This document shows, one piece after another, positions 11,965 through 45,102 of a stretch of 64,000 nt of DNA (its first letter is position 1; each line of letters opens with the position of its first letter). Origin of the DNA: Fidelibacterota bacterium (GTDB taxonomy: Bacteria; Fidelibacterota; Marinisomatia; Marinisomatales; TCS55); NCBI GenBank assembly GCA_004124385.1, contig SCKN01000007.1:62001-126000 (forward strand). The letters run 5' to 3'. The notes under the pieces were generated by a model. The model made no database searches, had not been told where the DNA came from, and saw only the letters and a list, made by a program, of their open reading frames with translations. The position numbers were made by a program, and so were the translations under genes.

Positions 11965-13188
11965 TTATTTCAACAATACCATTTTTCTAGTCTGTCTAAA
12001 ATTTCCAGTAGAAATTGAATAAAAATAAATACCGGAAGGAACTTTTATACCAGATTTATCTGTTCCATCCCATTTAACGCTTTTACTTCCTGACGTTAGA
12101 CTTTCTCGAACCAGATGAATTATTTCATGTCCAGATAAATCAAAAATGGAAATATTAACATTACTCGCTTTAGATAAAATAAATTGTATGGTCGTTGTAG
12201 GGTTAAACGGATTTGGATAATTTTGTATCAAAGAAAATTTACCTGGATGAGTAAAAAGATTATCATTTGTTCCAACGTACTCTAACCCCAGATAATCCAC
12301 TACACCCCGAACAATAGCATTAGCTGTAGAATCAAATGCGCCGGCGGCGGCGCAATTCATATCTTCATAAGTTAGGGCTAATACATTTTCACCATGAGTC
12401 ATCCACCACCAACTTTCAGGATATTGATCCGGAGTGCCAGAATTCCAACTTACAAAATAATCCCATGGCTCAAACCCATTAGGAAAATAGGATCGAACAT
12501 CATTGATAAATTGCTGCTCAAGAATTGTATAATTTGTAGTTGTACCTCCAGCTGCATGATACACAAAATATCGTACACAGGAATAGGCAGAGTGCATATT
12601 TAAAGCAACTTCCACGGGATTATTTGTTGCCATAAGTTCAATAAATCTATTTTTTAACACAGCTACTTCCGGTTCAAGGGTTACATCATCCCAACCGCTT
12701 TCTATATCAATCCCATTTGCATTTTCTCGAGAAAATCCTAACTCTACGCCATCTGGATTATACATGGGTATTATATGGAAGACAGTATTATTTCGAACAA
12801 ATTCTGCATAAGGTGAATCCGAGAGTAGAAGGTTAATTATTTCATCGGAAACCCAAAAAGATTCTTCTTCACTTGGATGTGTTCGAGTATGGATATAAAC
12901 CCTTGGCAAGGTATTAGAATCGGGAAAGTTAGAAATTGTGATTTCCCAAAGAGCTCGATTTTGAACAGTTGCGCCTATAGAGTCAATGTTTACATATGGA
13001 CTATTGCCCCAGCGTTCCAAATCGACAAGTAGACTATCATAACTATATCCCCAGTTTTGATCAATTCGATACAATTGGTTTTCATTAGAGGGTATAAGTC
13101 CACATTTATTCAATATATTGTGGTCTATCAAACTTTGACCCGTCAATGAGCAAAAAAGCAGAAAAAGTACATTTATTTGTTTAATCAT
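11965..13188 (-). CDS. Secreted M14-family zinc carboxypeptidase with type IX sorting domain
   Basis: 407 aa with a signal peptide (1-18, ending LTGQS). The M14 zinc site is visible: YIHTRTHPSEEES (H-x-x-E, near residue 107), then ALNMHSAYSCVRYF (third His, near 200) and LALTYEDMN, with Glu as the likely catalytic residue (near 272). IIPMYNPDGVELG is the family substrate loop. The last ~80 residues are a sorting domain (LIQNYPNPFNPTTTIQFILS ... VPSGIYFYSISTGNF ... KMVLLK), so it acts outside the cell or on its surface. It trims C-terminal residues of peptides or gamma-D-glutamyl peptides; specificity is unclear. It is downstream of a cluster of cell-wall peptidases on the same strand (11-base gap). 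Confidence 0.85.
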   Translation of the reverse strand: MIKQINVLFLLFCSLTGQSLIDHNILNKCGLIPSNENQLYRIDQNWGYSYDSLLVDLERWGNSPYVNIDSIGATVQNRALWEITISNFPDSNTLPRVYIHTRTHPSEEESFWVSDEIINLLLSDSPYAEFVRNNTVFHIIPMYNPDGVELGFSRENANGIDIESGWDDVTLEPEVAVLKNRFIELMATNNPVEVALNMHSAYSCVRYFVYHAAGGTTTNYTILEQQFINDVRSYFPNGFEPWDYFVSWNSGTPDQYPESWWWMTHGENVLALTYEDMNCAAAGAFDSTANAIVRGVVDYLGLEYVGTNDNLFTHPGKFSLIQNYPNPFNPTTTIQFILSKASNVNISIFDLSGHEIIHLVRESLTSGSKSVKWDGTDKSGIKVPSGIYFYSISTGNFRQTRKMVLLK

Positions 13189-13199
13189 TATGTTAAATA

Positions 13200-14294
13200 T
13201 TAAGAACCAAATATGATACCAGCAATTTGATTGGCAATTATAATTGGACTACCTGAATTTCGATTTGTTAGGATTATTATGCTCAAATTTTCTATTGGAT
13301 ATCTATGGTAAACATTCCTGAATCCGCGTGTAGTTCCAGTATGCCCAACACGGTTACGATTACTATATGAATCTAAACGCCATCCAAATCCATAACCTGT
13401 TTCAACACCATTTGAGAGTTTTCCGGATGTAAATGCTTCATTCAAAATTTCGAGTGATACAAGTTTATCTGTGTATAAGCTTTGATCCCATTTAAGCATA
13501 TCATTTAAAGATGTATAAATACCGCCATCTCCAAGGACAGCGCTGGTTAAACTTTGATCATCCAGAGAAAATTCATCTCCTTGAAGGGAATACCCAAATG
13601 CCCGATTGCTTATAGATGAAATTCCATTTTCGAATGCTACCGAATTTGACATGTCCAGTGGTGCAAAAATATTTTCTTCAAGAAATTCTGCATATCCGTT
13701 GCCTGAAACTTCCTCAACAATCATGGCTAATAATGCAAAACCTGAATTACTATATTGATATTGGGTTCCTGGCGTGAAATATGTGTAGTCCAAATTCATC
13801 ATCATATTTAGGACATCCACATCTTTAACCTGCATTGTAGTATTTTGGAGAATTAATTCTTCATAATCAACTAATCCTGATGTATGATTTAAAAGATGAC
13901 GAATGGTAATGTTACTTCCATATGGTGGAAAATTTTGAAAAATTTCCGTAAGAGAACTTGTATAATCTAACTGGTCCCGGCTTTTTAATATCATTATGGA
14001 CATGGCAGTAAATTGCTTTGTTATAGAAGCTAATCTAAAATTTGTTTTTGCTGATATATTATACCCTATTTCCAAATTTGCTATTCCATATCCTTTAGAA
14101 TAAAGAACTTCATTATTTTTGACAATTAATAATGCAGCACCCGGTACATATCCATCATCATAATCATACAGCAATAAATCGATTGCTACATTGTTTAATT
14201 CTCTTACATTGATATTTGATTTATCTTGGTCACAAGATAAATGGACGAAGCAAAGAATGATTATTATTAAAACGAATAGTGTCGTTTTTTTCAT
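13200..14294 (-). CDS. Lipoprotein serine hydrolase of beta-lactamase/S12 (D-peptidase) family
   Basis: 364 aa. The N-terminus (MKKTTLFVLIIIILCFVHLSC) ends in a lipobox-like L-S-C, so it is probably a lipoprotein. The class C-type motifs are all present: S-I-T-K (LASITKQFTAMSIMIL, about 91-106), Y-S-N (YQYSNSGFALLAMIVEEVSG, about 180-199) and H-T-G (RVGHTGTTRGFRN, about 316-328). The S12 family includes D,D-carboxypeptidases, D-aminopeptidases and esterases. In this operon a D-amino-acid peptidase acting on wall fragments is the likeliest role (inference). It ends 11 bases before the M14 gene and starts 13 bases after the permease stop. Confidence 0.85.
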   Translation of the reverse strand: MKKTTLFVLIIIILCFVHLSCDQDKSNINVRELNNVAIDLLLYDYDDGYVPGAALLIVKNNEVLYSKGYGIANLEIGYNISAKTNFRLASITKQFTAMSIMILKSRDQLDYTSSLTEIFQNFPPYGSNITIRHLLNHTSGLVDYEELILQNTTMQVKDVDVLNMMMNLDYTYFTPGTQYQYSNSGFALLAMIVEEVSGNGYAEFLEENIFAPLDMSNSVAFENGISSISNRAFGYSLQGDEFSLDDQSLTSAVLGDGGIYTSLNDMLKWDQSLYTDKLVSLEILNEAFTSGKLSNGVETGYGFGWRLDSYSNRNRVGHTGTTRGFRNVYHRYPIENLSIIILTNRNSGSPIIIANQIAGIIFGS

Positions 14295-14307
14295 TATTTG
14301 GGAAATT

Positions 14308-15678
14308 TTATTTTTTTACTTTCCAAAGATAATAAAAGGTCCCGCTCGCAGTTAATGCAAGTCCAATTAATGATGGGATAAATGCAGTAATTAATGTAAT
14401 TATAAAAAATGCCGAATAAAGAATAAGAACAACAATCATACTCCAAGGATACAGAAGTGCTTTATAAGGTCGTTCTTTATCGGGCCATTTTTTACGTAGA
14501 ACATAAATAGCACCAAATGTTAGTAAATTGAAAATTGTGCTCGTAGCAGAAAAGAAATCAATTATTATTTCATATGCGTTGGACCCGCCCATGCCTGATT
14601 GTGAATAGGTGGAAATAACAGAAAAAACTAGCAAGACACTGGCCCAAATCCCTTGGCCAATGAGTGCATTATTCGGCGTGCGAAAAACAGGATGGAGTTC
14701 TTTAAAATTTTCAAAAAATAATCCATCTCTCGCCATGGCATGCCAGGTACGACTTTTGCATAAAATCTGAGTACTTATATTTCCAAATGCATTTACAGCT
14801 ACTGCGACGGATATTAGAATACCACCCGTGGCTCCGAGAACGACCTTCATAGCTGCAGTTGCAACCCATTTATTTTCAGTAATTGCCTGAACATCTAATT
14901 GAAATAAATATCCAAGATTTGTTCCAATATATAGTAGCATCACTCCGCCTATACCAAAAAAGAGTGAGAGTGGAAGTGTCTTTTGCGGGTTCTTCACTTC
15001 CTCTGCCATATATGTTGCGCCTTCCCAACCGCTGAAAGCAAAGAAAGAATATCGTAAAGCAGCTCCCACAGCCAGGACTGTTTCCCAACCAAAGGTTTCG
15101 GGCCAAAGTGGATTTACGAAATTTTGAACATTTCCTGTTGAGAATGATGTGAGGGTCATTCCAATAATTGCACCCAATGCACCTACTTTTATGACACTGA
15201 AGAACACTTGAAATTTCCCACTAATACTGACACCAAAAAGATTAATTCCTGTCAATGTCCAAATGGTTATAAGTGAAATAATAAATGTGACTGGAAGATT
15301 AAAGGGAGTACCCATTGAAATTTCCCAAATAGCATTCAAATATTCAGTAAATACCAATGCAACAGCTACAATAGAAGCTGTTTCAGATACAAAAAACATA
15401 GCCCATCCTCGGATGAAAGCAATATATGGACCGTAGGCTTCTTTCAAGAAAACATAAGGGCCACCGGATTTAGGCATCATAGCTGTTAGTTCAGCATAAA
15501 TAACAGCTCCAAAAATGGTAATGATTCCGCCGATAACCCACACGAGACCATACAAGGATGTGCAGCCTACCAACGCCATGATGGGAGCCGGTGTACGGAA
15601 AATCCCCGAACCGATAATTCGGCTGATCACAATGGCGACTGACTCTTTGAGTCCTAGTTCTTGTTTATAATCAGTCAT
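14308..15678 (-). CDS. APC-superfamily amino-acid permease
   Basis: 456 aa with about twelve hydrophobic helices. The first helix region carries the APC substrate motif (VAIVISRIIGSGIFRTPAPI, about 14-33; G-S-G-I-F is the unwound binding segment), then AELTAMMPKSGGPYVFLKEA and FFAFSGWEGATYMAEEVKNP. These match the LAT/SteT/YfnA-like branch, which exchanges or imports neutral amino acids. It sits between the NamZ gene and the S12 hydrolase with gaps of 5 and 13 bases, inside the wall-degradation run, so uptake of liberated L- or D-alanine or another wall amino acid is a sensible inference. The true substrate is unknown. Confidence 0.88.
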   Translation of the reverse strand: MTDYKQELGLKESVAIVISRIIGSGIFRTPAPIMALVGCTSLYGLVWVIGGIITIFGAVIYAELTAMMPKSGGPYVFLKEAYGPYIAFIRGWAMFFVSETASIVAVALVFTEYLNAIWEISMGTPFNLPVTFIISLITIWTLTGINLFGVSISGKFQVFFSVIKVGALGAIIGMTLTSFSTGNVQNFVNPLWPETFGWETVLAVGAALRYSFFAFSGWEGATYMAEEVKNPQKTLPLSLFFGIGGVMLLYIGTNLGYLFQLDVQAITENKWVATAAMKVVLGATGGILISVAVAVNAFGNISTQILCKSRTWHAMARDGLFFENFKELHPVFRTPNNALIGQGIWASVLLVFSVISTYSQSGMGGSNAYEIIIDFFSATSTIFNLLTFGAIYVLRKKWPDKERPYKALLYPWSMIVVLILYSAFFIITLITAFIPSLIGLALTASGTFYYLWKVKK

Positions 15679-15683
15679 AAAGT

Positions 15684-16970: not shown

Positions 16971-19405
16971 TTAATTAAACTAACCTTGCGAAAGTCTAAA
17001 GCAGATCCGGAAGAAATGGTAACGATATATACACCGGAAGAAACATTTTGGCCTTTATTATTTAAACCGTTCCAATTCCACGAGTTTATTCCTATTGCAG
17101 ATGGTGGTATTGATTCATTTTTTATTGTTCGGCCCAATATATCAGTGATAAGAATGTTAGACACTTTATTCATGTGAAGGTTTTCAAATACGATTGTTAT
17201 AGATGAATTAGATGGATTTGGAAAAATAGATTTTATAGACACAGTTTTTGGAAGATTCGTATTAGTTGATTCATGTGATGTTAACTGTTCTTCATAAAAG
17301 TTGACAATTTTTATCATCAGATCATTCCGTTTGGATTCTGGATAAATAGCCTCAAAACCAACGGATAAATGGACAATGCCTCCAATATCATTACCTGACC
17401 CGAATGTGCCTATATATTGAACTCCCATCCCGCCTCTGGTGTTATAATCAACACCATCATATTTAGCACAAATTTCCGCACTGCCACTTGGTTTTATTCC
17501 ATCTGGCCAATCAACATTATAGGTGCCGTGGCTGCCATTATCAAATGTGATATTGTTAATATTATTGAAAATAGAATTGTTTACACCGAAACCACTATAT
17601 GTTCCATTTTGACCTCCAGCTGCATCGGAAATGTATTCAGCTTTCAGGTAATTATTATAAAATGATTGATCAATACTTGTGCCTTGGGATGATAAATCAT
17701 ATCCGACTTCTGATCCAGACAAAAACAAAAATCCACCATTTTCCAAATAATCTTTTACCTGATCTTGTTCTTCATAGTTGAAGGTACTATTTGCAGTCCC
17801 TTCTTCACCCAGTATCCAATCAACAAATGTATAATTCAATTCAATTTCATTATGTATTACTGCTTCATTTGTTGCTGAATCAAATGCTAATCCACTGTTA
17901 GCTATTGCGTCACCGTGTTGACGAATAAAATTGTGAGTATTTGTCGTTCCGCTGGCGCGATCAAAACCATTTACAATTAAACAGGGAACGGGCGAACTTG
18001 AGGGGACAATACCCAAATATTCTGTTTGAGGACTGGCGCCAAAATCATTCAAAGCAACCACAGCAAAATAATACGTTTCACCTTCATTCAAGTTCTCAAT
18101 AATGACTGGTCGTTGATTAGAGATTATTATGGTATCCACATTGGTGTAATTTAAATAAGATCGCAATACTGCAAATTCACTTGCCGTATTTGCACCGTTA
18201 AAATCAATCATTATATCGCCGTTTCCCACGTTGCGAATAGATAATTTTCCAGGAGTCGTAGGCGGTGCAGTTGCTCCAAATTTATGTGCCAGCAAATCCC
18301 ATAATTCTGTTTCAGAGCCATCATACCCCAACGCCCAGATACCCACACCTTTCAGGTTTTGATTCATGGCAAAATCGTATTTTAAAGAGAGTGACAGGCT
18401 ATCATCGTACCAGCCTTGAACCCATCCAGAATTCTGATATTTGTACCAGGGAGTTTGTGATTGTGCATGCCATAGTTTACCAAATGAAAGTGCATTACTT
18501 TCCATTTCAGAATAAAATTTAGCACTACCCGTTCCTGTTGTTGATGCTCCTGCAGTTCCTGAAGAAGTGGGCCATTCAAAGCCATAATAGGGAAGACCTA
18601 ATATAATTTTATCTGCTTGGTTATTCGTCTTATTTAAATAATCATTTACAGTCCAGGTGATTGTATAACCAGATCCACTCAATGGAGAATTGGGTCCCGA
18701 TACTGAACTGCCGCTGTAATGATATGCATAACCCATAATAAATAATCCGTCACTTATGGTTGCCAATGCATCATAATCCCAGGCATTACTCCAATCTACT
18801 GCCGGCATAGCCAACGTGACCTGCGATCCGGGAATTGCTGTCTCGAATGCGTTTTTGAGATCAGTAATAAACTGTACCATATTATTTTTTTGCGATGCTG
18901 GCATTCCTTCAAAATCAATATTGACACCATCGGCACCTGCTGATGAAACAGAATTAACTAAATTATTGATCAGAGTTTGTCGGTAACTGCTGCTGCTCAA
19001 CAGAGTTGCAATATCACTGCTGTTAAATAAAATAGCTGTTAGAACAACATCCGTTCCAGCCGCATGAGCCGTATTAATGAGCGAAGTGGTCGGCCAGCCG
19101 TGATCATCGCTGATGCCACCCGTAGCAGTTACTTCTGCACCAAAATAAGCGAGTGTGGAAATGAGGTTGAAATTGTAATTGGTCCAAGCAGTTCCCATCC
19201 AATAAGGATGATATCCAAATACTTCATGAGAAGGAGTTGAATTGTTATTTCGATAATAAGGAAGCAATGGAATGGATTTTAATTGTTCATTTGACTCTGT
19301 ATAATGAATATTATAGTATTCTAACTGTTGTTGATGAATGCTGGGTTTATGTTCACCAAAAACAAAACATAATATTGAAAAAAAGATTAAAATAGGTTTC
19401 TTCAT
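16967..19405 (-). CDS. Secreted GH18 glycosidase with Fn3 and type IX sorting domains
   Basis: 812 aa with a signal peptide (1-17). The GH18 barrel (about 65-375) starts EVFGYHPYWMG, has the catalytic strand GADGVNIDFEGM (D159...D164-x-E166, E166 the acid/base) and FIMGYAYHYSG, LGLPYYGFEW. The YHPYW start and overall order recall the SleL/YaaH branch, which cuts peptidoglycan, more than classical chitinases. An Fn3 domain (about 380-468) follows, then a ~240-residue Rossmann-like domain (PCLIVNGFDRASG) as seen in FCB-phylum secreted hydrolases, and a sorting domain (IFPNPSNSSITIVF ... NVSSGVYIVTISSG ... KVSLIK). It overlaps the S66 stop and the NamZ start by 4 bases each. Peptidoglycan glycan as substrate is inferred from neighbours. 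Confidence 0.85.
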   Translation of the reverse strand: MKKPILIFFSILCFVFGEHKPSIHQQQLEYYNIHYTESNEQLKSIPLLPYYRNNNSTPSHEVFGYHPYWMGTAWTNYNFNLISTLAYFGAEVTATGGISDDHGWPTTSLINTAHAAGTDVVLTAILFNSSDIATLLSSSSYRQTLINNLVNSVSSAGADGVNIDFEGMPASQKNNMVQFITDLKNAFETAIPGSQVTLAMPAVDWSNAWDYDALATISDGLFIMGYAYHYSGSSVSGPNSPLSGSGYTITWTVNDYLNKTNNQADKIILGLPYYGFEWPTSSGTAGASTTGTGSAKFYSEMESNALSFGKLWHAQSQTPWYKYQNSGWVQGWYDDSLSLSLKYDFAMNQNLKGVGIWALGYDGSETELWDLLAHKFGATAPPTTPGKLSIRNVGNGDIMIDFNGANTASEFAVLRSYLNYTNVDTIIISNQRPVIIENLNEGETYYFAVVALNDFGASPQTEYLGIVPSSSPVPCLIVNGFDRASGTTNTHNFIRQHGDAIANSGLAFDSATNEAVIHNEIELNYTFVDWILGEEGTANSTFNYEEQDQVKDYLENGGFLFLSGSEVGYDLSSQGTSIDQSFYNNYLKAEYISDAAGGQNGTYSGFGVNNSIFNNINNITFDNGSHGTYNVDWPDGIKPSGSAEICAKYDGVDYNTRGGMGVQYIGTFGSGNDIGGIVHLSVGFEAIYPESKRNDLMIKIVNFYEEQLTSHESTNTNLPKTVSIKSIFPNPSNSSITIVFENLHMNKVSNILITDILGRTIKNESIPPSAIGINSWNWNGLNNKGQNVSSGVYIVTISSGSALDFRKVSLIK

Positions 19406-20421
19406 TCAGAATTCCTGGTTGGAGATTCTAGAATACGTATCAATTTATTGTCTGCGTCAATTTCAGCCAATACACCAATAGGTAAAGTGACATTGTATTT
19501 GTAATGACCAAAAGGGTAATTAGCTAAAACAGGTACACCTAAATTAGTAAAATACTGCTGTAAGACATCCATCATTTTAAAACTCTCAATGTCATCTGGT
19601 GGTTCATCCGATCTACGAGTAAATTTTCCTAATATGACACCTTCAAGATTTTCAAATTTTCCCGCTAATTTAAGTTGGGAAAGATAGCGGTCGATACGGT
19701 AAGGAGCTTCGCCTACGTCTTCCATGAATAGAATTTTCCCATCCGTTTCAATTTCGTATGGTGTTCCCATGAGAGCAGCGATCAGTGAAAGATTTCCGCC
19801 AATAAGTTCACCTTTTCCTGTACCTCCATGGAGTGTCATTACGGAATCTTTTAAACCGTATGATTCCAGTTCGATGATATAGCCATTGGCATTTTCTTTT
19901 TCTATGGCTAGCCAAAAATAATTATCGGAAATAGGGGAAAGATTATCTTCGCTTCCTAATCCATACATGGGGCTTGGCGTATGAAAAGTTGTAAGTCCGG
20001 TCATTTTATTAATGGCGAGATGCAGCCCGGTTATATCACTGAATCCCACTAAAATCTTTGGATTTGATTTTATAATATCATAATCCAACATGTCCAAAAT
20101 ACGTGTTATGCCGTACCCACCTGTTCCGGGAAAAATGGCTTTCACCTGTGGATGTGTCCATGCTGCCATGAATTCTTCAGCACGTCTTTCATCTGTCCCG
20201 CCAAGATAACCATGCTTACGAAATAAATCTTCAGCCTGAATTATAAAATATCCTCTCTCCTCCAATCGTTCTTTTGCCAATGACATTCTTGTTTTATCCA
20301 AAGGACCTGAAGGGGCAACAAATATTATTGTATCTCCTGGAGACAAACGATCAGGGACAGTGCTCAAAAGAAAAGAACTAATTAAAAGTGTTAGGATAAT
20401 TCCAGGATGAATTCGAACCAT
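19402..20421 (-). CDS. Exported L,D-carboxypeptidase (peptidase S66)
   Basis: 339 aa. The N-terminal hydrophobic stretch (MVRIHPGIILTLLISSFLLS) is a signal peptide or anchor absent from the second S66 protein at 22272-23201, so this copy probably works in the periplasm. S66 motifs: SPGDTIIFVAPSGPLDK, FPGTGGYGITRILDMLDYD, and the nucleophile block ILVGFSDITGLHLAI (Ser in G-F-S-D). Later come HGGTGKGELIGGNLSLIAAL and LFMEDVGEAPYRIDRYLSQL with the second catalytic Glu. S66 enzymes cleave D-Ala from L-Ala-D-Glu-DAP-D-Ala tetrapeptides (or act as MccF). Its stop overlaps the GH18 start (4 bases) and its start is 3 bases after the DdpX stop. Confidence 0.88.
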   Translation of the reverse strand: MVRIHPGIILTLLISSFLLSTVPDRLSPGDTIIFVAPSGPLDKTRMSLAKERLEERGYFIIQAEDLFRKHGYLGGTDERRAEEFMAAWTHPQVKAIFPGTGGYGITRILDMLDYDIIKSNPKILVGFSDITGLHLAINKMTGLTTFHTPSPMYGLGSEDNLSPISDNYFWLAIEKENANGYIIELESYGLKDSVMTLHGGTGKGELIGGNLSLIAALMGTPYEIETDGKILFMEDVGEAPYRIDRYLSQLKLAGKFENLEGVILGKFTRRSDEPPDDIESFKMMDVLQQYFTNLGVPVLANYPFGHYKYNVTLPIGVLAEIDADNKLIRILESPTRNSE

Positions 20422-20424
20422 TGG

Positions 20425-21108: not shown

Positions 21109-21119
21109 AAATAATAAAC

Positions 21120-21668
21120 TTATCCAAAAAAGAATCGACAAATGTATACAGCGCTAAATACACCCACTGCATCAGCAAATAAGCCTGCTACTAAGGCATG
21201 ACGCGTTTTGCGAATGCCCACGGATCCAAAATAAACAGCCAAAACATAAAAGGTGGTTTCGGTAGAACCAAACATGGTTGCTCCAATTTTTGCTATGAGG
21301 GAATCAGGACCATGTACATTTATTAAGTCGGTTAATAGACCTAATGAGCCACTGCCGGATAAAGGACGCATTAAAGCCAATGGTAGGTTTTCTGGAGGAA
21401 AGCCAATCACCGTTAAAAATGGTGAAAGAAGATTTAACAAAAGATCAAGAGCTCCTGATGCACGAAACATTCCTATGGCTACAAGTATTGCAACCAAAAA
21501 AGGTATAATCCTTACTGCAATAGTGAATCCGTCTTTTGCACCTTCAACAAACGATTCATACACTTTGATTTTTTTAAAGATTAGTCCATAGAATGGAATG
21601 CCAACTAGTAAAAAAGGAATAATATATTTTGAGAATTCGTTGATAACGCTGACAATTGAATCAATCAT
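21120..21668 (-). CDS. spmB: SpmB-like membrane protein (nucleoside-recognition/Gate domain)
   Basis: 182 aa, mostly hydrophobic, with GSGSLGLLTDLINVHGPDSL and MFGSTETTFYVLAVYFGSVG, the core of SpmB (spore maturation protein B) and the Gate domain of nucleoside transporters. Translation is coupled to spmA by an ATGA overlap, and a perfect Shine-Dalgarno (GGAGGTGAT) lies inside the last spmA codons, the strongest ribosome site I saw in the window. In Bacillus subtilis spmA-spmB are in an operon with the D,D-carboxypeptidase gene dacB and affect spore cortex. Here they sit between S66/S13 and M15 wall peptidases in a non-spore-forming Gram-negative. Transport of a wall-derived molecule is speculation. 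Confidence 0.85.
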   Translation of the reverse strand: MIDSIVSVINEFSKYIIPFLLVGIPFYGLIFKKIKVYESFVEGAKDGFTIAVRIIPFLVAILVAIGMFRASGALDLLLNLLSPFLTVIGFPPENLPLALMRPLSGSGSLGLLTDLINVHGPDSLIAKIGATMFGSTETTFYVLAVYFGSVGIRKTRHALVAGLFADAVGVFSAVYICRFFFG

Positions 21669-22261
21669 ACATCACCTCCATGAGAGAAGGAGAAGCGCTT
21701 CATTTTTTCTAAAGATTTAACTGCAATCACGGCAGCTATCGTGGACATTGTTGTCGCAATGATAGTTGTAATAAAAATTTGACTGGCATGTGCACCCATT
21801 AATGCAACGACAGTTGCGGGTAAAATAAGTTGAACGCTGGATGTATTAATCGCCAGAAACATACACATGGCATTGGTGGCTGTTTCTTTGTTGGGATTGA
21901 GTTCTTGCAATTCTTCCATCGCTTTTAAACCAAGTGGTGTTGCAGCATTTCCTAAACCTAATATATTCGCAGACATATTTAATACAATTGATCCGATAGC
22001 CGGATGATCTTCCGGCACATCTGGGAAAAGACGAATGGTTATAGGTCGCAACCCTTTGGCAATAATCCGGATTAATCCGGATTCTTCCGCAATTTTCATA
22101 ACACCTAACCAAAGTGCCATTATGCCAATTAATCCAATAGCCAAATTCACAGCCACTTTAGCCATATCAATTGCCGCTTCTGTAACAGCGTCAATATTGC
22201 CGGTGAATGCACCCACAACGACGCCAATAAGCATCATTCCAAACCATATGTAATTCAGCAT
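21665..22261 (-). CDS. spmA: SpmA-like membrane protein (nucleoside-recognition/Gate domain)
   Basis: 198 aa with several transmembrane helices: MLNYIWFGMMLIGVVVGAFT, AVNLAIGLIGIMALWLGVMK, NMSANILGLGNAATPLGLKA and NTSSVQLILPATVVALMGAH are SpmA signature blocks. The N-S-x-N-x-L-G-x-G-N-A-A-T-P segment is the Gate-domain motif. It pairs with spmB by a 4-base overlap, and an AAGGAA ribosome site precedes its start. The biochemical role of SpmA/SpmB is not established in any organism I know of; they are membrane partners linked to wall maturation. The upstream gene is the cytoplasmic S66 peptidase (10-base gap). Confidence 0.87.
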   Translation of the reverse strand: MLNYIWFGMMLIGVVVGAFTGNIDAVTEAAIDMAKVAVNLAIGLIGIMALWLGVMKIAEESGLIRIIAKGLRPITIRLFPDVPEDHPAIGSIVLNMSANILGLGNAATPLGLKAMEELQELNPNKETATNAMCMFLAINTSSVQLILPATVVALMGAHASQIFITTIIATTMSTIAAVIAVKSLEKMKRFSFSHGGDV

Positions 22262-23202: not shown

Positions 23203-24615
23203 TTATAGTTCAGCTAATATTGTAATGATTTTATCTTGTAGGTTGCGATAGGGTTTGGTTTTTCCTATAAATCCATTCATTAAAATGGAAAAGACTAATG
23301 GTTCGCCAGACTTTGTGAAAACATAACCAGACAAACAACTAACGCCAGATAAAGAACCCGTTTTAGCAATGATACGATTTCCATTTTTGCCATTCATTCT
23401 ATTTTTCAATGTACCAACTCCTCCGCTAGATAGGATTGAGATTAAATTATCCCAAATTTGATTTGTGTTAAAAGCCCATGATAATAATTGAATAAAATGT
23501 TCCGGACTTGAATAATTATAGCGTGAAACACCCGATCCATCAGACATATAAAATGTAGTCGTATCCAAATCAACTTCATTGTGCAAAAACGTTTTTATGG
23601 CGGTTAAACCATTTTGCCATGTCCCTGTTGTATCCGTTGCTTCGTGTCCAATTAATTTTACCAGTAATTCAGCAGTAAGATTATCACTTTCTTTCATAAG
23701 ATTATTAAGGGTAACGATTAATGGTTTAGATGTGTGAGATACCAACAAACGACCATTGCCTGAATATTCCCTTTTAAATATGTTATTTATTTCTCGTCCA
23801 TGATTTGACAGCATTTCTTTAAAGACAAATCCGGTAAATGCAGTTGGGTCATCTATATTTCGACTGAACGTATCTGCTGCTGACGTGTCCATCACCATTC
23901 CAGAAATAGTGAAATCATTTGTACTGTTAGCCCAATTCCGATCGATTTTAAAATCTATAAATCCTGTAGTATCATTCACCGTCAAAGACTGATTATTTAT
24001 CATTATATATTCTGTTTTAGGATTTGTCGTGTAATTGACAGGTGAGCCGAGGGTCGCTGGACGTATATAAAAATCGATACAATTATCATTTACAGAAAGT
24101 GCGCTAATCTGTGCTGCATATTTCCAGGGACCTTCATCCCACATCCAGCCTTCTCCGAAACGCTGGGTATCCATAAGTGATTCATCCAAAAATAAAGTAT
24201 CTATTTTATTTAATTTTTCAGATATCACTCGTGCTAACGAATCGAGACTATTTAAGGTTAGATCGGGATCGCCGCCACCCACAAGGTAAAGATTGTTATT
24301 TTCTTGAAAAATAGATGTGGTGAATGTATATCCTATATCCAGCAGTGCTAGGGCAGAAATACATGTATATAATTTTGTGTTACTGGCAGGATTAAAAAGT
24401 GAATTAGCATTTAATTCATAAAGTGTATTATTATTCTTTAGGGAAACGATTTTAATACCCAGATTTGTAGATAATCCTGAATCATCGATAACCTTTTGAA
24501 AAGCAGATTGAAGAAAATTGCTCCCTGAAACTTTATACATTTTTGGTGTACTTACACACCCTGTAATAAGGAATAAAATAAATATATTTATATAAAATTG
24601 TTTTAATCGAATCAT
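23203..24615 (-). CDS. dacB: D-Ala-D-Ala carboxypeptidase/endopeptidase, S13 (DacB/PBP4), lipoprotein
   Basis: 470 aa. The N-terminus ends in a lipobox (ILFLITGC). Penicillin-binding motifs: S-x-x-K in FNPASNTKLYTCISALALLD (about 76-95), S-x-N-like SDGSGVSRYNYSS (about 360-372) and K-T-G in RIIAKTGSLSGVSCLSGYVF (about 422-441). The spacing between the first two, about 280 residues, is the large insertion typical of S13. These enzymes remove D-Ala from pentapeptides and cut 4-3 cross-links. It overlaps the M23 stop by 4 bases. In a scavenging locus it would open and trim wall fragments; ordinary wall maintenance is the alternative. Confidence 0.92.
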   Translation of the reverse strand: MIRLKQFYINIFILFLITGCVSTPKMYKVSGSNFLQSAFQKVIDDSGLSTNLGIKIVSLKNNNTLYELNANSLFNPASNTKLYTCISALALLDIGYTFTTSIFQENNNLYLVGGGDPDLTLNSLDSLARVISEKLNKIDTLFLDESLMDTQRFGEGWMWDEGPWKYAAQISALSVNDNCIDFYIRPATLGSPVNYTTNPKTEYIMINNQSLTVNDTTGFIDFKIDRNWANSTNDFTISGMVMDTSAADTFSRNIDDPTAFTGFVFKEMLSNHGREINNIFKREYSGNGRLLVSHTSKPLIVTLNNLMKESDNLTAELLVKLIGHEATDTTGTWQNGLTAIKTFLHNEVDLDTTTFYMSDGSGVSRYNYSSPEHFIQLLSWAFNTNQIWDNLISILSSGGVGTLKNRMNGKNGNRIIAKTGSLSGVSCLSGYVFTKSGEPLVFSILMNGFIGKTKPYRNLQDKIITILAEL

Positions 24616-29793: not shown

Positions 29794-29935
29794 TTTAATA
29801 TAAATTATTTATGTTTAATAATTCAAATTTAATATTACATTATACATATATGAACAAGATATAATATTAGAAGAAGGTTAATTATTTTTTTAATATTTTT
29901 AATCAAAAGTAAAACAAAAACGAAGGAGTATGATT
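29794..29935. promoter_or_regulatory. AT-rich divergent promoter region with RBS for the FG-GAP gene
   Basis: This 142-base gap separates divergent genes and is the likely start point of both long transcripts. On the plus strand TATAAT occurs at 29860-29865 with a poor TTACAT (29835-29840) 19 bases upstream, a weak promoter candidate. AAGGAG at 29923-29928 is a good ribosome site. It is only one base from the ATG at 29930 but seven from the in-frame ATG at 29936, so the latter is the preferred start. No operator-like palindrome was seen. Confidence 0.4.
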
Positions 29936-33157: not shown

Positions 33158-35827
33158 ATGGGTAAATCTTCAATTAAAGTCACTGTATTTTTATTATTGA
33201 ATGCGTTGTTATGGAGTGCCAATGGTAAAATTTCCGGTCATATAATTGATAAAGAAAGTGGAAAACCTTTGCCAGGGGTTAATGTTTTAGTTGAGGGAAC
33301 TTCCTCTGGTGCAGCTACGGACTTGAATGGTGATTATGTTATTTTAAATATGCCTCCTGGTAATTACTCTTTACAGGTATCTTATATTGGGTATGCGACT
33401 CAACTCGTACAAGGATTGAGAGTCAATATTGATCAAACGACTCGACAAAATATTTCACTTTCTACTGAAGCTTTGGAAGGAGAGGAAGTAATTGTACTTG
33501 CAGAAAGACCTATGGTCCAGAAAGACCTCACATCTTCCCAAAAGATTACGACCGGAGCTGAAATGAAGGAACTCCCCGTAGAATCGTTCCTCGGCGTTCT
33601 CACTACTCAAGCAGGTGTTAATCAGGGTGCCGATGGTGCACTGCATATTCGTGGCGGTCGATCGAACGAAATCGGTTATTATATTGATGGTGTAGCTATG
33701 AGCAATCCATTTTTTACCAATTCACTATCAATTAATGTTTCAAATAAAGCATTAGAAGAAATGAAAGTTGTTAGTGGCGGGTTCAATGCCGAATATGGTA
33801 ATGCTATGAGTGGAATTGTCAATTTGCAGATTAAAGAAGGCAACGAAAATTATGAGGGTAGCTTCTCTGCTTATTCTGGAGATTATTTTTCAAGTGATAA
33901 AGACATATTTATAAATATTAATGATATTAATCCTGTTGCAAACAAAATTATTGAAGGAACACTTTCAGGTCCTGTCCCTTTCATAGGAAAAGGTCGCCGA
34001 TTGACATTTAATATCAGTGGTCGTTACAGCGATAATGAGGGGTATCTTTATGGGGTTCGTGAACATAACCCCGATGATTTTGCTTATTTTCCTCCATCGG
34101 GAGATTGGTATATAGAAATGGGAGGTGACGGTAAATTTGTTCCTATGAATCCAAGTAAAAAATTAAACGGATTGGGTAAATTGACATTTCGAGTCACACC
34201 TAGATTAAAGCTCTCCAGTCAATTTCTGTTTACTAAAAGTGATTGGAGGTCTTATGTGCACAGTTATAAATACAATCCCGATGGTACTTATAATAAAGCC
34301 AATCAAAATACAAATTTTTCGTTAAAGTTGAATCATGCCATTGGCGAAAAAAGTTATTATGAAACAAACATATTTTATAGCACTACAGATTATAGTCAGT
34401 TTGTTTTTGAAGATACACAAGACCCAGATTATGTACGTACAGATTGGATCAATACAGAGCCCAGTTCCGCCACATTTGTCTTTGGTGGGACACAAATGGG
34501 ACACAGTTACCGTAAATCATACTCTTCCGGTGGAAAACTCGATTTTACAAGCCAGATTACATCCCGCCATGAAATAAAAACAGGTATCAGCGCTCGCACA
34601 GATAATCTGACTGAAGAAAATTTTACAGTTCTTTATAGTGATCAATATCGAGAACCAACTGTTTTAGAAGCCAATGAATCACCTTATCATAATCTCTATG
34701 AAAATCAGACATTATTTCTTTCAGGATACATGCAGGATAAGATTGAATATTCCAATTTTATAATGAACCTCGGTGTACGTTATGATTATTTTGATCCTAA
34801 ATCAGACTATATAACTGATTTATTAGACCCGGAAGGCGGTACTACTCCTGCGGATCCTAAAAAAATGATTTCTCCTCGACTTGGAATTTCTTTTCCTATT
34901 ACAGATGAAGGTATTCTGCATTTTTCATATGGACATTTTTACCAATTGCCTACACTTCGGAGATTATATAAAACGAGCATTTTTGGTGCTGGATTATCGC
35001 CCAGTCTGGGGTATGCAGATTTAAAGCCAGAGAAAACAGTCAATTACGAATTTGGACTTCAGCAGCAGATTACCAAAGTCATGGCAATAGAAATAAATAT
35101 TTTTTATAAAGATATACGAGATTTATTAGCCTTGCAATCTATCCACTACGAATCTGCAAAGTATGGTCCGTCAAGTTATTCAATATATTTAAATAAAGAT
35201 TATGGTTCAGTACAAGGGTTTACTTTCAGCTTAACCAAACGGTATGATCCTCTAACTAAATTATCTGCTTGGACAGACTATACCTATCAAGTAGCTGACG
35301 GAAACAGTGTTAAATCAGGTTCATTCTTCTTTAATGCCTTAACGGGAGAGGAAGAAGAAAAACGTATTGTCCCATTGGGCTGGGATCAACGGCATATTAT
35401 GAGTGCTACCGTTATGTATGGCGATCCAAGAAAATGGTCGTTTAGTTTCATTGGAAAATTAAGCAGTGGTTGGCCGTACACCCCAGATATCCCTCTTGCA
35501 AATTATGTACCGGAATCGAATAGTGATACTAAACCATGGCAGAAAAATGTTAATATTCGTTTTCAAAAAACATTTAAAATCGGCAAATTTAGTTTGGTTG
35601 CTTTTATTAAGGTTTATAATCTATTTGATACACGAAATGAGCGTTATGTATTTGATGATACCGGTCGATCAGGATATACATTTGGTAATCAATCAAACCA
35701 AGAATCAGCAGGTCTGATTAGCCATTATGGTGAGCCCGGAGTTCATACGTGGTCTGAATATATGACTCGACCACATTATTATACAGCTCCTCGATCTGCT
35801 TCCCTAGGGTTTACAATTGAGTTTTAA
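33158..35827 (+). CDS. TonB-dependent receptor with carboxypeptidase-regulatory domain (second cassette)
   Basis: 889 aa. A signal peptide (1-22) precedes the regulatory-like domain (about 24-105: GHIIDKESGKPLPGVNVLVE, AATDLNGDYVILNMPPGNYS), the LEGEEVIVLAERP linker, the plug (about 125-230: LHIRGGRSNEIGYYIDGVAM, GGFNAEYGNAMSGIVNLQIK) and a barrel ending RSASLGFTIEF. It is a paralog of the 3159-6146 receptor, clearest in the first 235 residues. Three bases separate its stop from the 1130-aa gene, which is followed with a 1-base overlap by the PorV-like gene, giving the same gene order as the first cassette. It lies between wall-degrading enzyme genes, so uptake of peptidoglycan fragments is a candidate role, not demonstrated by sequence. 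Confidence 0.9.
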   Translation: MGKSSIKVTVFLLLNALLWSANGKISGHIIDKESGKPLPGVNVLVEGTSSGAATDLNGDYVILNMPPGNYSLQVSYIGYATQLVQGLRVNIDQTTRQNISLSTEALEGEEVIVLAERPMVQKDLTSSQKITTGAEMKELPVESFLGVLTTQAGVNQGADGALHIRGGRSNEIGYYIDGVAMSNPFFTNSLSINVSNKALEEMKVVSGGFNAEYGNAMSGIVNLQIKEGNENYEGSFSAYSGDYFSSDKDIFININDINPVANKIIEGTLSGPVPFIGKGRRLTFNISGRYSDNEGYLYGVREHNPDDFAYFPPSGDWYIEMGGDGKFVPMNPSKKLNGLGKLTFRVTPRLKLSSQFLFTKSDWRSYVHSYKYNPDGTYNKANQNTNFSLKLNHAIGEKSYYETNIFYSTTDYSQFVFEDTQDPDYVRTDWINTEPSSATFVFGGTQMGHSYRKSYSSGGKLDFTSQITSRHEIKTGISARTDNLTEENFTVLYSDQYREPTVLEANESPYHNLYENQTLFLSGYMQDKIEYSNFIMNLGVRYDYFDPKSDYITDLLDPEGGTTPADPKKMISPRLGISFPITDEGILHFSYGHFYQLPTLRRLYKTSIFGAGLSPSLGYADLKPEKTVNYEFGLQQQITKVMAIEINIFYKDIRDLLALQSIHYESAKYGPSSYSIYLNKDYGSVQGFTFSLTKRYDPLTKLSAWTDYTYQVADGNSVKSGSFFFNALTGEEEEKRIVPLGWDQRHIMSATVMYGDPRKWSFSFIGKLSSGWPYTPDIPLANYVPESNSDTKPWQKNVNIRFQKTFKIGKFSLVAFIKVYNLFDTRNERYVFDDTGRSGYTFGNQSNQESAGLISHYGEPGVHTWSEYMTRPHYYTAPRSASLGFTIEF

Positions 35828-40272: not shown

Positions 40273-40291
40273 TTTTTTTTTGTATTCTTAA

Positions 40292-41575
40292 TTGAATACT
40301 CTTTATAAATACACCTTAATTTTTCTTTATTATTTAATTTTATTTGATGATTCTGTTTTTCCTCAAACAGAAGATGCGGGACTACTACTTGAACGTAATC
40401 CTACAATTAAGATAACGGATTCATTAAACTATCTAGTACACAATGGTACTACTAAACTGTTTGAAGATGCCATTGAAGGTGGAGCAATTGATTATTACGG
40501 TGGTGTAGTGGATAGTGTATTATTTCGTGTATTACTTAAAAATCAATGGTTACCCTGGCAATATGGAAAAACGTTTCATGATAAAATTAGTGGCCAAAGA
40601 ATTGCAACATTTTTAAATGATTATAAAGAAGGTGTAAAGAAATTTCAGTTCAAATTATTTTCTAATAGTATTTTAACAATTACAAAAATAACCATATTTA
40701 AACCATATTTTGAAGAAACCTTGCCATTAAATAGAACACTAAAATCGGTTGATGCCCACATTCAAAAGCCTAGAATTATTTCTCGTGAGGAATGGGGTGC
40801 TGCGCCACCCAAGTATGACTATACGAACCACCCTTATTTTGATAAATTAACTTTACACCATGCCGCATGTTGTGGAGCTGAAAATATTGATGAGGGTATG
40901 GAAGCAGTTCGTGGGATTCAAGATTTTCATCAAAATGGAAGAGGTTGGAATGATATTGGGTATCATTTTTTAGTGGATCGTGCTGGGAATATATATCAAG
41001 GACGGCCAGAAACAGTTTTAGGAGCCCATGTTGGGGGTGCAAATACAGGTAATATAGGTGTTTGCATTTTAGGCTGCTATCATCCTCCAGAAGCTAATTG
41101 CAATCAAACGATGTCATCAACGAGCCGTGACTCTATCGTTAAATTATTTGCCTGGATATCACAGATATATGGACAAGACCCAAACGTCTTATTAGGACAT
41201 CGAGATTATTTTGGGACAACTGCCTGTCCCGGAGATAATGTGTGGCCGTACTTATCGGGTATTCGTTCAGATATAATTGAATTACAGGAAACGATAGAAC
41301 TAAATTTTCAATTTACTGCTTATCCTAATCCATTTATTTTTAAGCAAACTTTCCAGTATGATTTGAATACATCTGCTCACATTTTAATCAATATTTATGA
41401 TTTATTAGGTCGAAAAGTTAGAATGGTTGTAAATGAAGATTATGAACCCGGGATGAAAACATTTTCATGGGATGGGAAACATTTTAACGGAGAAAAATTA
41501 CCTGCAGGTGTTTATTTTATTCGTTCAATTATAAATGGGAAGAGTGAAACTAAAAAAGTTTTAATGCTAAATTAG
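40292..41575 (+). CDS. Secreted PGRP-type N-acetylmuramoyl-L-alanine amidase with sorting domain
   Basis: 427 aa starting at TTG 40292; no ATG precedes the signal peptide (about 1-25, ending SVFPQ), so the rare start is accepted. The PGRP/amidase-2 domain (about 155-330) has PRIISREEWGAAPP, LTLHHAACC (first zinc His), IGYHFLVDRAGNIYQGRP (catalytic-region Tyr), LGAHVGGANTGNIGVCILG and LLGHRDYFGTTACPGDNVW (second His and Cys zinc ligands). All ligands are intact, so amidase activity on the MurNAc-L-Ala bond is expected. The C-terminal sorting domain (TAYPNPFIFKQTFQYDL ... LPAGVYFIRSIINGK ... KVLMLN) has an eroded NPFNP motif. It follows the PorV-like gene by 19 bases and may be co-transcribed. 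Confidence 0.9.
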   Translation: MNTLYKYTLIFLYYLILFDDSVFPQTEDAGLLLERNPTIKITDSLNYLVHNGTTKLFEDAIEGGAIDYYGGVVDSVLFRVLLKNQWLPWQYGKTFHDKISGQRIATFLNDYKEGVKKFQFKLFSNSILTITKITIFKPYFEETLPLNRTLKSVDAHIQKPRIISREEWGAAPPKYDYTNHPYFDKLTLHHAACCGAENIDEGMEAVRGIQDFHQNGRGWNDIGYHFLVDRAGNIYQGRPETVLGAHVGGANTGNIGVCILGCYHPPEANCNQTMSSTSRDSIVKLFAWISQIYGQDPNVLLGHRDYFGTTACPGDNVWPYLSGIRSDIIELQETIELNFQFTAYPNPFIFKQTFQYDLNTSAHILINIYDLLGRKVRMVVNEDYEPGMKTFSWDGKHFNGEKLPAGVYFIRSIINGKSETKKVLMLN

Positions 41576-42314: not shown

Positions 42315-43571
42315 TCATTCACAATTATTAAAAATGTCTTCAATTGTTTCTCTTTTTCTGATTAACCGAGTTTCTTCGCCGTTCAGAAAAATTTCTGCTG
42401 CTCGCGGTCGAGTGCAAAATTGGTGGGACATTGTATATGAATAAGCACCCGTATCCATCACCGCTATTAAATCACCCTCTTTAACTTCTGGGAAATCTCT
42501 ATCAACAGCAAGTCTGTCTGTATTTTCACATATGCGGCCTGTGATATCCACTTTCTTGATATTTGGTGCGTCAGGTTCACCTACTTTATAAATGCGGTGA
42601 TAAGCACCATAAAGTGCCGGACGCATCAATGTTTCCATTCCTGCATCTACACCGATATATGATTTATAACTTTCTTTTATTCCAGTGACTCGAGTGAGTA
42701 GTATACCTGTATCGCCCACAATAGATTTTCCCGGTTCTACCCATAATGTTGGTTTATTGTCATTCCGATTTTCAAAATAGGGGTGAAATATTTTTGCCAC
42801 TTCCTTGAAAACCTGCTCGAAATCTAACCCAACTTCATCATCTTGATAAGGTATTCCATATCCTCCGCCCAGACTGATATAGTGCATATGTATATCTAAT
42901 TCATTACTAATCAGGTGTATTGTTCTTAATATTTCAGTCATTAGTTTCGGAAAATAGTCAGAGTCCAAAACACCTGAACCGGTCATACACTGAATTCCAA
43001 ATTTATTAATCCCGGATTCTTTGGCAAGGCGATATGCATTTACGATTTCATAATGGGGAACGCCAAATTTTGAATTTTCACCACCGGTGACGATCTGTGC
43101 AAAAGCCCCTTTCCCAAATCCTGGATTGAGTCTAAATGAAATATCATTTGGTAGCCCAATAGATTTCATGCGGTTAAATGAAGTAATATCATCCAAATTA
43201 ATATGGGCACCGGCTTTTAATGCATAATCCAAATCTTCGAGAGATTCATAATTTCCAGTGTATATACATTCACTCCCTTTAATTCCGGCTTTGCCTGCAA
43301 CATAGATTTCGCCGGGACTGGCACAATCGGCTCCTAGAGATGGTATTGTATCTTTAAGCGTTTTAATTAAGTGAGGATTGCTGTTTGCTTTTATAGTATA
43401 ACAAATATGATAACTGTCGAAGTTATTACTCAATGCACTATTTATTTTATTCACATTTTCAATTAATCGCTCTTCACTATAAATATATAATGGTGTGCCA
43501 TATTTTTCAGCAATAGCCGAAAGCAATGATTTATCTTTTATGATATTTAAAAGAGGGTGTGATTGCTGCAT
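42315..43571 (-). CDS. lysA: Diaminopimelate decarboxylase
   Basis: 418 aa, fold III PLP decarboxylase of full length. The PLP lysine is in CYTIKANSNPHL (A-x-K-A-N type), followed by LGADCASPGEIYVAGKAG, SFRLNPGFGKG, the phosphate-binding ISLGGGYGIPYQDDE, LWVEPGKSIVGDTGIL, GRICENTDRLAVDRDFPEV (C-E-x-x-D, catalytic Cys) and MDTGAYSYTMSHQFCTRPRA. It converts meso-DAP to L-lysine and CO2. Elsewhere lysA sits with biosynthetic dap genes; here its only operon partner is the MpaA-like amidase, so it may also serve to use scavenged DAP. A 124-base divergent region with the M20 gene is upstream. No obvious lysine riboswitch was seen. Confidence 0.93.
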   Translation of the reverse strand: MQQSHPLLNIIKDKSLLSAIAEKYGTPLYIYSEERLIENVNKINSALSNNFDSYHICYTIKANSNPHLIKTLKDTIPSLGADCASPGEIYVAGKAGIKGSECIYTGNYESLEDLDYALKAGAHINLDDITSFNRMKSIGLPNDISFRLNPGFGKGAFAQIVTGGENSKFGVPHYEIVNAYRLAKESGINKFGIQCMTGSGVLDSDYFPKLMTEILRTIHLISNELDIHMHYISLGGGYGIPYQDDEVGLDFEQVFKEVAKIFHPYFENRNDNKPTLWVEPGKSIVGDTGILLTRVTGIKESYKSYIGVDAGMETLMRPALYGAYHRIYKVGEPDAPNIKKVDITGRICENTDRLAVDRDFPEVKEGDLIAVMDTGAYSYTMSHQFCTRPRAAEIFLNGEETRLIRKRETIEDIFNNCE

Positions 43572-43695
43572 CGACTTTTAATTAAATAGGATAAAATAAT
43601 ATACATGAAATTTACATTGTGTTTGAGCAAGGTAATAGGGTTCATACGTATATTTATTATCTAATCATTAACTATTCAACCTAAAATTAAACATA
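43572..43695. promoter_or_regulatory. Divergent intergenic region between lysA and the M20 peptidase
   Basis: 124 bases, strongly AT-rich, between two divergent starts, so it should hold promoters for both. Several TATA-like hexamers are present, but none has a convincing partner at -35 or -33. I saw no conserved leader structure, riboswitch or operator palindrome. Confidence 0.35.
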
Positions 43696-45102
43696 ATGGA
43701 ATCTAAAAAATTACAACAAGATATTAATTCATTCTGGGATGATGAAATTTTCCCAACTATTTGTGAGTATATAAAAATCCCAAACAAGTCTCCCTCATTT
43801 GATCCAGATTGGAAAGCCAATGGATTTATGGATCAAGTTGTTGATCTAGCTAGCAAATGGATAAATCAACATAAACCAAAGAATAGTACATTACATGTAT
43901 TTAACGAAGAAGGAAGAACACCTCTTTTAATAATCGATGTACCCGGCGATGCTAATGGGACAATTCTGATGTATGGCCATTTAGACAAGCAACCTGAAAT
44001 GGAAGGTTGGTCTGAAGGACTAGATCCATGGCAACCCGTCCTCAAAGGTGACAAATTGTATGGACGTGGTGGGGCAGACGATGGGTATGCTGTTTTTGCA
44101 TCTGTATGTTCATTGAACGCATTGTTGAATCAGGGAGTTTCATTGCCGCGGATAATTGTTTTGATTGAATGTTCAGAAGAAAGCGGTTCTCCAGATTTGC
44201 CCTTTTATATGGATCATTGTGCAGACCTTATTGGTTCTCCAGATTTGGTTATTTGTCTGGACTCCGGCGCCGGGAATTACGAACAATTTTGGACGACGAC
44301 TTCATTGCGTGGTCTCATTGGATGCACGTTGCGAATAGATATTCTAAAAGAGGGAATACATTCCGGTGGCGGAAGTGGAATTGCGCCTTCATCTTTTAGA
44401 ATTATACGACAGCTTTTATCACGATTAGAAAATGAAGAAACGGGTGAAATTATTGTTGAAGGCTTAAAAGTAGAGATTCCTGATCATCGAGTGAGAGAAG
44501 TACAAGCTATGGTAGATGTATTAGGTGATGAAGTATTTGATACATTGCCTTGGGTGGATGGAGCTTGGCCAATTACTAACGATAAAATGGAAATGGTGTT
44601 AAATAATACATGGCGCCCAATGCTCTCTATTGTTGGAGCTGATGGTCTTCCTACAGTAAAAGACGGTGGCAATGTATTGCGGCCTTATACAACCATAAAG
44701 CTATCATTACGTATTCCGCCGACCCTTGATGCTATCGTCGCTAAAAAAATTGTAGAAGATTTATTGATAGACAATCCTCCTTATGGCGCCAAAGTGACAA
44801 TGGAATTTGAAGAACCGGCCACTGGCTGGGAAGCACCACCTTTAGCTGACTGGCTTGACGATGCTATTCAGAATGCATCCAAAACTTTTTATGAAAAACC
44901 AGCTTTGGCCATGGGTGAAGGCGGAACGATACCTTTTATGTCAATGTTGGGTAAAAAATTTCCTGCAGCACAATTTGTAATAACCGGCGTCCTCGGTCCT
45001 CAAGCGAATGCCCATGGACCAAATGAATTCCTTCATATTTCCTATGCTAAAAAATTGACAGCTTGCATAGGATTAATTATCAAAGCTTTTGGTCAAAAAT
45101 AA
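43696..45102 (+). CDS. M20-family metallo-dipeptidase
   Basis: 468 aa, no signal peptide, so probably cytoplasmic. M20 (CNDP/carnosinase-like branch) features: ILMYGHLDKQPEMEGWSEGL (H-x-D zinc ligand and catalytic Asp), LYGRGGADDGYAVFASVCSL (bridging Asp), VLIECSEESGSPDLPFYMDH (catalytic Glu and zinc Glu) and LDSGAGNYEQFW. A dimerisation domain insert (about 220-330: GIHSGGGSGIAPSSFRIIRQ) and a late zinc His in ANAHGPNEFLHISYAKK complete the set. These enzymes cut dipeptides; L-Ala-D/L-Glu from wall recycling is a plausible substrate given MpaA next door, but the branch is generalist. First gene of a coupled plus-strand run; the next start is 4 bases after its stop. Confidence 0.9.
   Translation: MESKKLQQDINSFWDDEIFPTICEYIKIPNKSPSFDPDWKANGFMDQVVDLASKWINQHKPKNSTLHVFNEEGRTPLLIIDVPGDANGTILMYGHLDKQPEMEGWSEGLDPWQPVLKGDKLYGRGGADDGYAVFASVCSLNALLNQGVSLPRIIVLIECSEESGSPDLPFYMDHCADLIGSPDLVICLDSGAGNYEQFWTTTSLRGLIGCTLRIDILKEGIHSGGGSGIAPSSFRIIRQLLSRLENEETGEIIVEGLKVEIPDHRVREVQAMVDVLGDEVFDTLPWVDGAWPITNDKMEMVLNNTWRPMLSIVGADGLPTVKDGGNVLRPYTTIKLSLRIPPTLDAIVAKKIVEDLLIDNPPYGAKVTMEFEEPATGWEAPPLADWLDDAIQNASKTFYEKPALAMGEGGTIPFMSMLGKKFPAAQFVITGVLGPQANAHGPNEFLHISYAKKLTACIGLIIKAFGQK

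Follow-up and report, generated by a model that had tools for sequence, protein, structure and literature searches.

Why a bacterium should gather so many predicted cell-wall-degrading enzymes in one place, and whose wall they would dismantle, is the question raised by the locus at 10.4–45.1 kb of a 64,000-nucleotide stretch of DNA (contig SCKN01000007.1, positions 62,001 to 126,000; hereafter ‘the window’) from a member of the phylum Fidelibacterota (SAR406/Marinimicrobia), a lineage found widely in the ocean and with hardly any cultured members. The host genome, 2.09 Mb in size and 96.8% complete, carries the window on its contig 9; G+C content of the window is 36%. The locus is probably a peptidoglycan-scavenging and diaminopimelate (DAP)-salvage cluster, its host being a bacterium that appears unable to make DAP for itself.

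A first-pass annotation, made by a model from the sequence alone, had proposed a locus for scavenging external peptidoglycan that covers nearly every bond of the wall. Pfam and NCBIfam profile searches of the window proteins confirmed nearly all of the families it had named across 10.4–45.1 kb: NamZ, GH18, GHL10, two S66 carboxypeptidases, DacB, MpaA, LysA, amidase, M20, permease, TonB receptor and PorV are present. Two calls are weaker, the M23 endopeptidase scoring below its cut-off with its motifs present (Table 1) and the supposed DdpX being an M15 protein below the DdpX equivalog cut-off (123 vs 176); the dipeptidase does belong to an M20 dipeptidase-like family, from which a substrate is not assigned. 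Coverage of nearly every bond was, however, overstated: the substrates of GH18 and GHL10 are unproven and M23 is marginal, and what the locus offers is a set of enzyme families whose activities are predicted.

The known route to DAP is missing from the host. In a close comparison set of 41 related genomes neither DapB nor DapF was found (0/41 for each, against 11/14 and 9/14 positive control genomes, respectively), and DapA was absent from the host genome and its genus (14/14 controls positive); these and the other absence calls rest on metagenome-assembled genomes. Across a wider set of 175 phylum genomes at least 80% complete, DapB was present in 12, all outside the host class and none within it, and these 12 positives indicate that the search works in the phylum. 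LysA, the DAP decarboxylase, scored above cut-off in 92/175 genomes, 82 of which had no DapB. The host carries a single LysA, and it is sited in this locus. With one LysA and no DapA, DapB or DapF, its substrate has to originate outside the known pathway and must be imported.

Wall synthesis, by contrast, is kept. Matches to Mur ligases and transpeptidases (penicillin-binding proteins) were found in 41/41 related genomes, and a wall-less host was rejected on this ground; auxotrophy for D-Glu or D-Ala was likewise rejected, since the host encodes both MurI (glutamate racemase) and Alr (alanine racemase), and the predicted auxotrophy is for DAP only. MurE carried DNPR, the motif of DAP-adding MurE (PMC3681970), in all 20 genomes examined, and its best PDB matches were DAP ligases. 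These matches bear on an unlikely alternative, in which the wall contains a DAP substitute (e.g. lanthionine) or lysine, MurE needs no DAP, and the locus supplies only lysine and carbon. MurE specificity is not set by sequence alone: S. aureus MurE is reported to lack intrinsic lysine specificity (PMC3829189), and the murein of Fidelibacter multiformis IA91, an isolate of the phylum, was reported with alanine, glutamic acid and lysine (PMC11652737). This alternative has to contend with a DAP-type motif in every MurE sequence inspected and with DAP ligases as the best matches of MurE, and under it LysA would still require imported DAP.

Clustering of the wall genes is real and above chance. NamZ was present in 39/41 related genomes; LysA lay within 15 kb of it in 20/28 (random placement, approximately 0.9) and S13-type DacB in 14/20 (random placement, approximately 0.6), counts that come from kin genomes and so are not independent. 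In the host itself the LysA–NamZ distance is larger, at approximately 26 kb. Synteny maps, in which relatives’ genomes or loci carry labels beginning with G or L, gave a family-level core of LysA–GH18–NamZ(–DacB), of which LysA–GH18–NamZ recurs throughout the order and parts recur throughout the class. In L092, L095, L181 and L189 this trio is followed by amidase, PorV and the receptor-partner protein, and by the receptor where the contig extends that far; L100 has the order DacB–S66–SpmAB-like–M15–NamZ; and L175, from another order of the same class, has GH18–LysA–S66 beside DacB–SpmAB-like genes. Combined with amidase, PorV and receptor, LysA–GH18(–NamZ) thus turns up in further families and, in part, in a second order. 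The M20 gene stands divergently beside LysA or GH18 in G001, G005, G006, G007, G013, G014 and G020. MpaA beside LysA was seen in the host genome alone, and in other phyla NamZ usually had just a beta-lactamase-like gene as neighbour. The peptidoglycan-related neighbourhood is thus borne out by conservation, and the refuting condition set by the first-pass annotation, conserved neighbours in relatives lacking the wall enzymes, was answered in the locus's favour.

Gene content, clustering, the absence of DapA, DapB and DapF, the DNPR motif and the single LysA together allow a route to be drawn, in which locations, substrates, transport and flux are predictions. Secreted or surface GH18, amidase, and probably M23 and M14, all with type IX secretion system (T9SS) tails, would loosen and cut foreign wall, and the fragments would cross the outer membrane, for which the TonB receptor cassette is a possible entry route. 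Periplasmic NamZ, DacB, M15 and S66 would then strip N-acetylmuramic acid (MurNAc) and terminal D-alanines, and peptides or amino acids would reach the cytoplasm by an importer, a role for which the APC permease or the SpmAB-like pair can be proposed as no more than candidates. There the second S66 and MpaA would free meso-DAP, to be passed to MurE for the host's own wall and to LysA for lysine. Mpl was above cut-off in 0/41 genomes, the best match in the host being the MurC-type ligase of the dcw cluster; without it an imported tripeptide cannot be attached directly, and Mpl-based reuse of tripeptide was therefore rejected. Release of DAP by MpaA, followed by MurE, would be the simplest route.

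The same enzymes could instead serve recycling or remodelling of the host's own wall during growth, with DAP or lysine drawn from the dissolved amino acids of seawater by ordinary uptake. LdcA, MpaA and DacB belong to the classical repertoire of wall recycling or remodelling, the run includes an amino-acid permease, and LysA–NamZ–S66–SpmAB-like–DacB also clusters in L190, which belongs to another class and is DapB-positive. Self-recycling, however, yields no net DAP, while growth needs new DAP and the enzymes to make it are absent; several of the hydrolases, moreover, bear secretion tails that recycling does not need. We regard this explanation, too, as improbable. Of murein recycling in E. 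coli (LdcA, MpaA, Mpl, NagZ, AmpG, AmpD) the locus shares the co-occurrence of S66, MpaA and amidase families, but it differs in that there is no Mpl, that neither NagZ nor AmpG is in the locus, that MpaA is paired with LysA, and that secreted hydrolases are added.

The secretion tails were the basis on which an external substrate was first proposed. Profile searches placed T9SS C-terminal sorting domains on GH18, the M23-like protein, M14, the amidase and others, but such tags are also common elsewhere in the window (0.8–7 kb, 45–52 kb and 62–63 kb), which leaves the tag argument weaker than the absence of the DAP pathway. It was from sequence that signal peptides, lipoprotein motifs and T9SS tails were recognised, and an external location for the tagged hydrolases is predicted from such signals. 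The need for outside wall material stands nonetheless, by way of the missing DAP pathway, the DAP-type MurE and the single LysA. That the secreted hydrolases are weapons, lysing competitors or prey with nutrient gain secondary, would suit the T9SS tails on GH18, the M23-like protein, the amidase, M14 and the nearby subtilase, but is highly improbable, given that cytoplasmic MpaA, S66 and LysA and the conserved partners NamZ and DacB point to catabolism and that no immunity-type genes were recognised.

Salvage of DAP from foreign peptidoglycan, although favoured here, has several observations weighing against it. The analysis turned up no muropeptide importer and no Mpl, which is normally responsible for the direct reuse of tripeptide. 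The fold of GH18 matched chitinases equally well as SleL in Foldseek comparisons, with a structure model only partly confident. This part of the genome holds many T9SS-tagged proteins, and of the T9SS machinery only a PorV-family protein was seen, no search having been aimed at the machinery. Several members of the host genus have no LysA at all. Lastly, the arrangement in L190 means that clustering by itself is no proof of dependence on foreign wall. Whether the reading extends to a whole class of SAR406, such that the class builds a DAP wall without a DAP pathway, its wall and lysine depending on the peptidoglycan of others as dismantled by this locus, with LysA the last lysine-pathway enzyme left, is a wider proposal that we hold to be evenly balanced.

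Scavenging of muropeptides has been published for Fidelibacter, and the idea is therefore not new in the phylum; the earlier remark that nothing of the kind was described in this lineage was too strong. F. multiformis IA91 (AB16, a different class from that of the host) takes its wall from exogenous muropeptides and is unable to synthesise MurNAc, D-Ala, D-Glu, DAP or lysine, and its class has no wall synthesis genes (PMC11652737). It shares with the host the phylum, the lack of DAP synthesis and, as predicted for the host, reliance on the wall fragments of others. The host differs in keeping Mur ligases, penicillin-binding proteins, MurI and Alr, with only the DAP branch missing, and the LysA-like genes of G042 (probably the IA91 genome) are not in such a locus. 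What is new relative to that report (PMC11652737) is wall synthesis retained with the DAP branch alone lost, a single LysA inside the locus, and the secreted hydrolases; a literature search returned no report of a SAR406 peptidoglycan locus or of DAP auxotrophy beyond Fidelibacter. The comparison suggests that the host is intermediate between bacteria with full wall synthesis and those with complete muropeptide dependence of the Fidelibacter type, a stage in which the DAP branch has been lost and its last enzyme kept in a wall-degrading locus. The predicted need would connect the walls of other bacteria with the host's supply of lysine and the building of its wall, and make the host dependent on its neighbours, and, being specific to DAP or muropeptides, it offers a direct hint for cultivation.

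Likeness to a polysaccharide-utilisation locus, also proposed at first, proved overstated. As in Bacteroidota SusC/SusD loci, a TonB receptor adjoins secreted glycosidases, but here the receptor reaches 87 bits where the SusC cut-off (TIGR04056) stands at 368, its partner has no assigned family, and no SusD domain was found in profile scans of the window proteins. The NamZ cluster of Bacillus subtilis comprises NagZ–AmiE–NamZ with MurNAc uptake and MurQ; the present locus resembles it in combining NamZ with an amidase-type enzyme predicted to act on wall fragments, but has neither NagZ nor MurQ, the conserved partners being LysA, GH18, DacB, S66 and SpmAB-like proteins. In Bacillus, dacB–spmA–spmB forms a sporulation operon. 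Here too a D,D-carboxypeptidase gene is followed by two Gate-domain membrane proteins, although DacB is of S13 type and an S66 gene intervenes. Sporulation is, to our knowledge, not expected in Fidelibacterota, and despite this the SpmA/SpmB-like pair (21120–22261) is strongly conserved (79–83% identity) beside DacB–S66; its role is perhaps in transport.

Table 1. Predicted genes of the locus, in window coordinates, with the evidence for each assignment and its occurrence in relatives.
Position	Strand	Feature	Evidence and context
10431..11339	-	Ribokinase-type PfkB kinase	TIGR02152 352 bits, above cut-off; final gene of run; 0-bp gap to neighbour
11340..11930	-	SIS-domain sugar-phosphate isomerase, KpsF/GutQ-like	Profile search; also adjoins NamZ in G006, G013
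11965..13188	-	M14 zinc carboxypeptidase, signal peptide, T9SS C-terminal domain	Homologue (64% identity) adjoins NamZ in L046
13200..14294	-	Lipoprotein serine hydrolase, class C beta-lactamase/D-aminopeptidase-like	PF00144 190.7 bits; SxxK and YxN motifs
14308..15678	-	APC amino-acid permease	PF13520; homologues 77–78% identical in same neighbourhood in L042, L047
15684..16970	-	NamZ exo-N-acetylmuramidase (predicted), signal peptide, SIHKEQLEFYN N-terminal tag	NamZ_N 260.6 bits, NamZ_C 143.7 bits
16967..19405	-	GH18 glycosidase: YdhD/SleL-like catalytic domain, FN3, middle domain, T9SS C-terminal domain, SIHQQQLEYYN tag	122.7 bits; catalytic DGVNIDFE
19402..20421	-	S66 LD-carboxypeptidase with signal peptide	PF02016/PF17676
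20425..21141	-	M15 D-Ala-D-Ala dipeptidase-like lipoprotein	PF01427 86 bits; 62% homologue in L100
21120..21668	-	Gate-domain membrane protein, SpmB-like	PF07670; 79% identical in L057, L100, with partner, adjoining DacB–S66
21665..22261	-	Gate-domain membrane protein, SpmA-like	PF07670; 81–83% identical in L057, L100
22272..23201	-	S66 LD-carboxypeptidase without signal peptide	Profile search; kept beside DacB in L047, L057, L100
23203..24615	-	DacB/PBP4 (S13) lipoprotein	TIGR00666 228.4 bits vs cut-off 107.8; SxxK, SxN, KTG
24612..26729	-	M23 endopeptidase (weak assignment), T9SS C-terminal domain	M23 21.0 bits, under Pfam cut-off 28.7
26733..27890	-	Secreted protein without family assignment	Unmatched in Pfam, also at E=1
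27952..29793	-	GHL10 glycosyl hydrolase-like, FlgD_ig/T9SS-type tail	PF02638 132.4 bits; opening gene of run
29930..33037	+	FG-GAP repeat protein, T9SS C-terminal domain	71% (partial) homologue in L095, beyond receptor
33158..35827	+	TonB-dependent receptor	Cassette kept beside LysA–GH18–NamZ in L091, L092, L095
35831..39223	+	Large secreted receptor partner, no assigned family	No Pfam match; homologues 63–68% identical in same cassette, 43% in L091
39220..40272	+	PorV/PorQ-family outer-membrane protein	NF033709 218 bits vs cut-off 90
40292..41575	+	N-acetylmuramoyl-L-alanine amidase (Amidase_2), T9SS C-terminal domain	60.6 bits; kept beside PorV in L092, L095, L181, L185, L189
41597..42343	-	MpaA murein-peptide gamma-D-Glu-DAP amidase, without signal peptide	NF007897 equivalog 239.8 bits vs cut-off 157
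42315..43571	-	DAP decarboxylase LysA	TIGR01048 equivalog 362.6 bits vs cut-off 297.9; matched in the PDB by DAP decarboxylases
43696..45102	+	M20 family dipeptidase-like enzyme	Profile search; divergent beside LysA or GH18 in relatives

The minus-strand run at 10431–29793 comprises 16 co-directional open reading frames (ORFs), which lie no more than 61 bp apart and overlap by 4 bp in four places, a spacing consistent with a single operon. At higher coordinates stand the plus-strand receptor cassette (29930–41575) and then the LysA–MpaA pair, whose genes overlap by 29 bp, facing the M20 gene. The first-pass annotation had overlooked the Gate-domain pair, the serine hydrolase and the T9SS-tagged M14, as well as the extension of the run to 10431 with the SIS protein and the ribokinase. 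MurQ was considered for the SIS protein and ruled out, MurQ models scoring just 19–26 bits.

Within the run, relatives of the serine hydrolase adjoin NamZ across many phyla, and a 54% homologue of the GHL10 protein adjoins NamZ in L032 and L052. The APC permease is a candidate importer for freed amino acids. By sequence GH18 is nearest to YdhD, and its middle domain had no match in the PDB. The S66 protein with a signal peptide would be periplasmic and that without one cytoplasmic and LdcA-like. DacB is the sole S13 protein of the host genome. The M23-like protein has HxxxD and HxH metal motifs and an M23 peptidase as top PDB match (E=0.0024), and is probably an M23 endopeptidase; the top match of MpaA was MpaA itself (5hxd, E=7e-53). 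A structure model of the receptor partner was too poor (pLDDT 40) and was discarded.

NamZ and GH18, which are non-homologous, share a segment directly after the signal peptide (SIHKEQLEFYN and SIHQQQLEYYN, respectively). Across the compared loci this pattern matched 36 ORFs, by length and position all GH18 or NamZ; the segment may be a docking tag, or a duplicated 5′ end. A second NamZ of the host genome (L050:9507-10826), also present in most relatives, has a sodium symporter, an Atg22-like MFS protein and an alanine racemase as neighbours, and perhaps marks a distinct locus for MurNAc salvage.

Three T9SS-tailed proteins (45089–51935; beta-helix, BNR and subtilase) immediately follow the M20 gene, a trio that also follows M20 in G001 and in part in G005 and G013. 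On the other flank, after a stretch without clear genes, an epimerase ORF (9589–10131) matches its family over the C-terminal portion alone (166–240 of 240), possibly a broken gene. Past the T9SS-tailed trio, dihydroorotate dehydrogenase-like, carbon-nitrogen hydrolase, dihydropyrimidinase-like and uracil/xanthine permease genes stand in a row (52898–57741), likely for pyrimidine catabolism, the last three having 85–92% identical homologues in L032. An ECF sigma factor, FecR and TonB receptor (58333–62498) make up a surface-signalling set near the locus.

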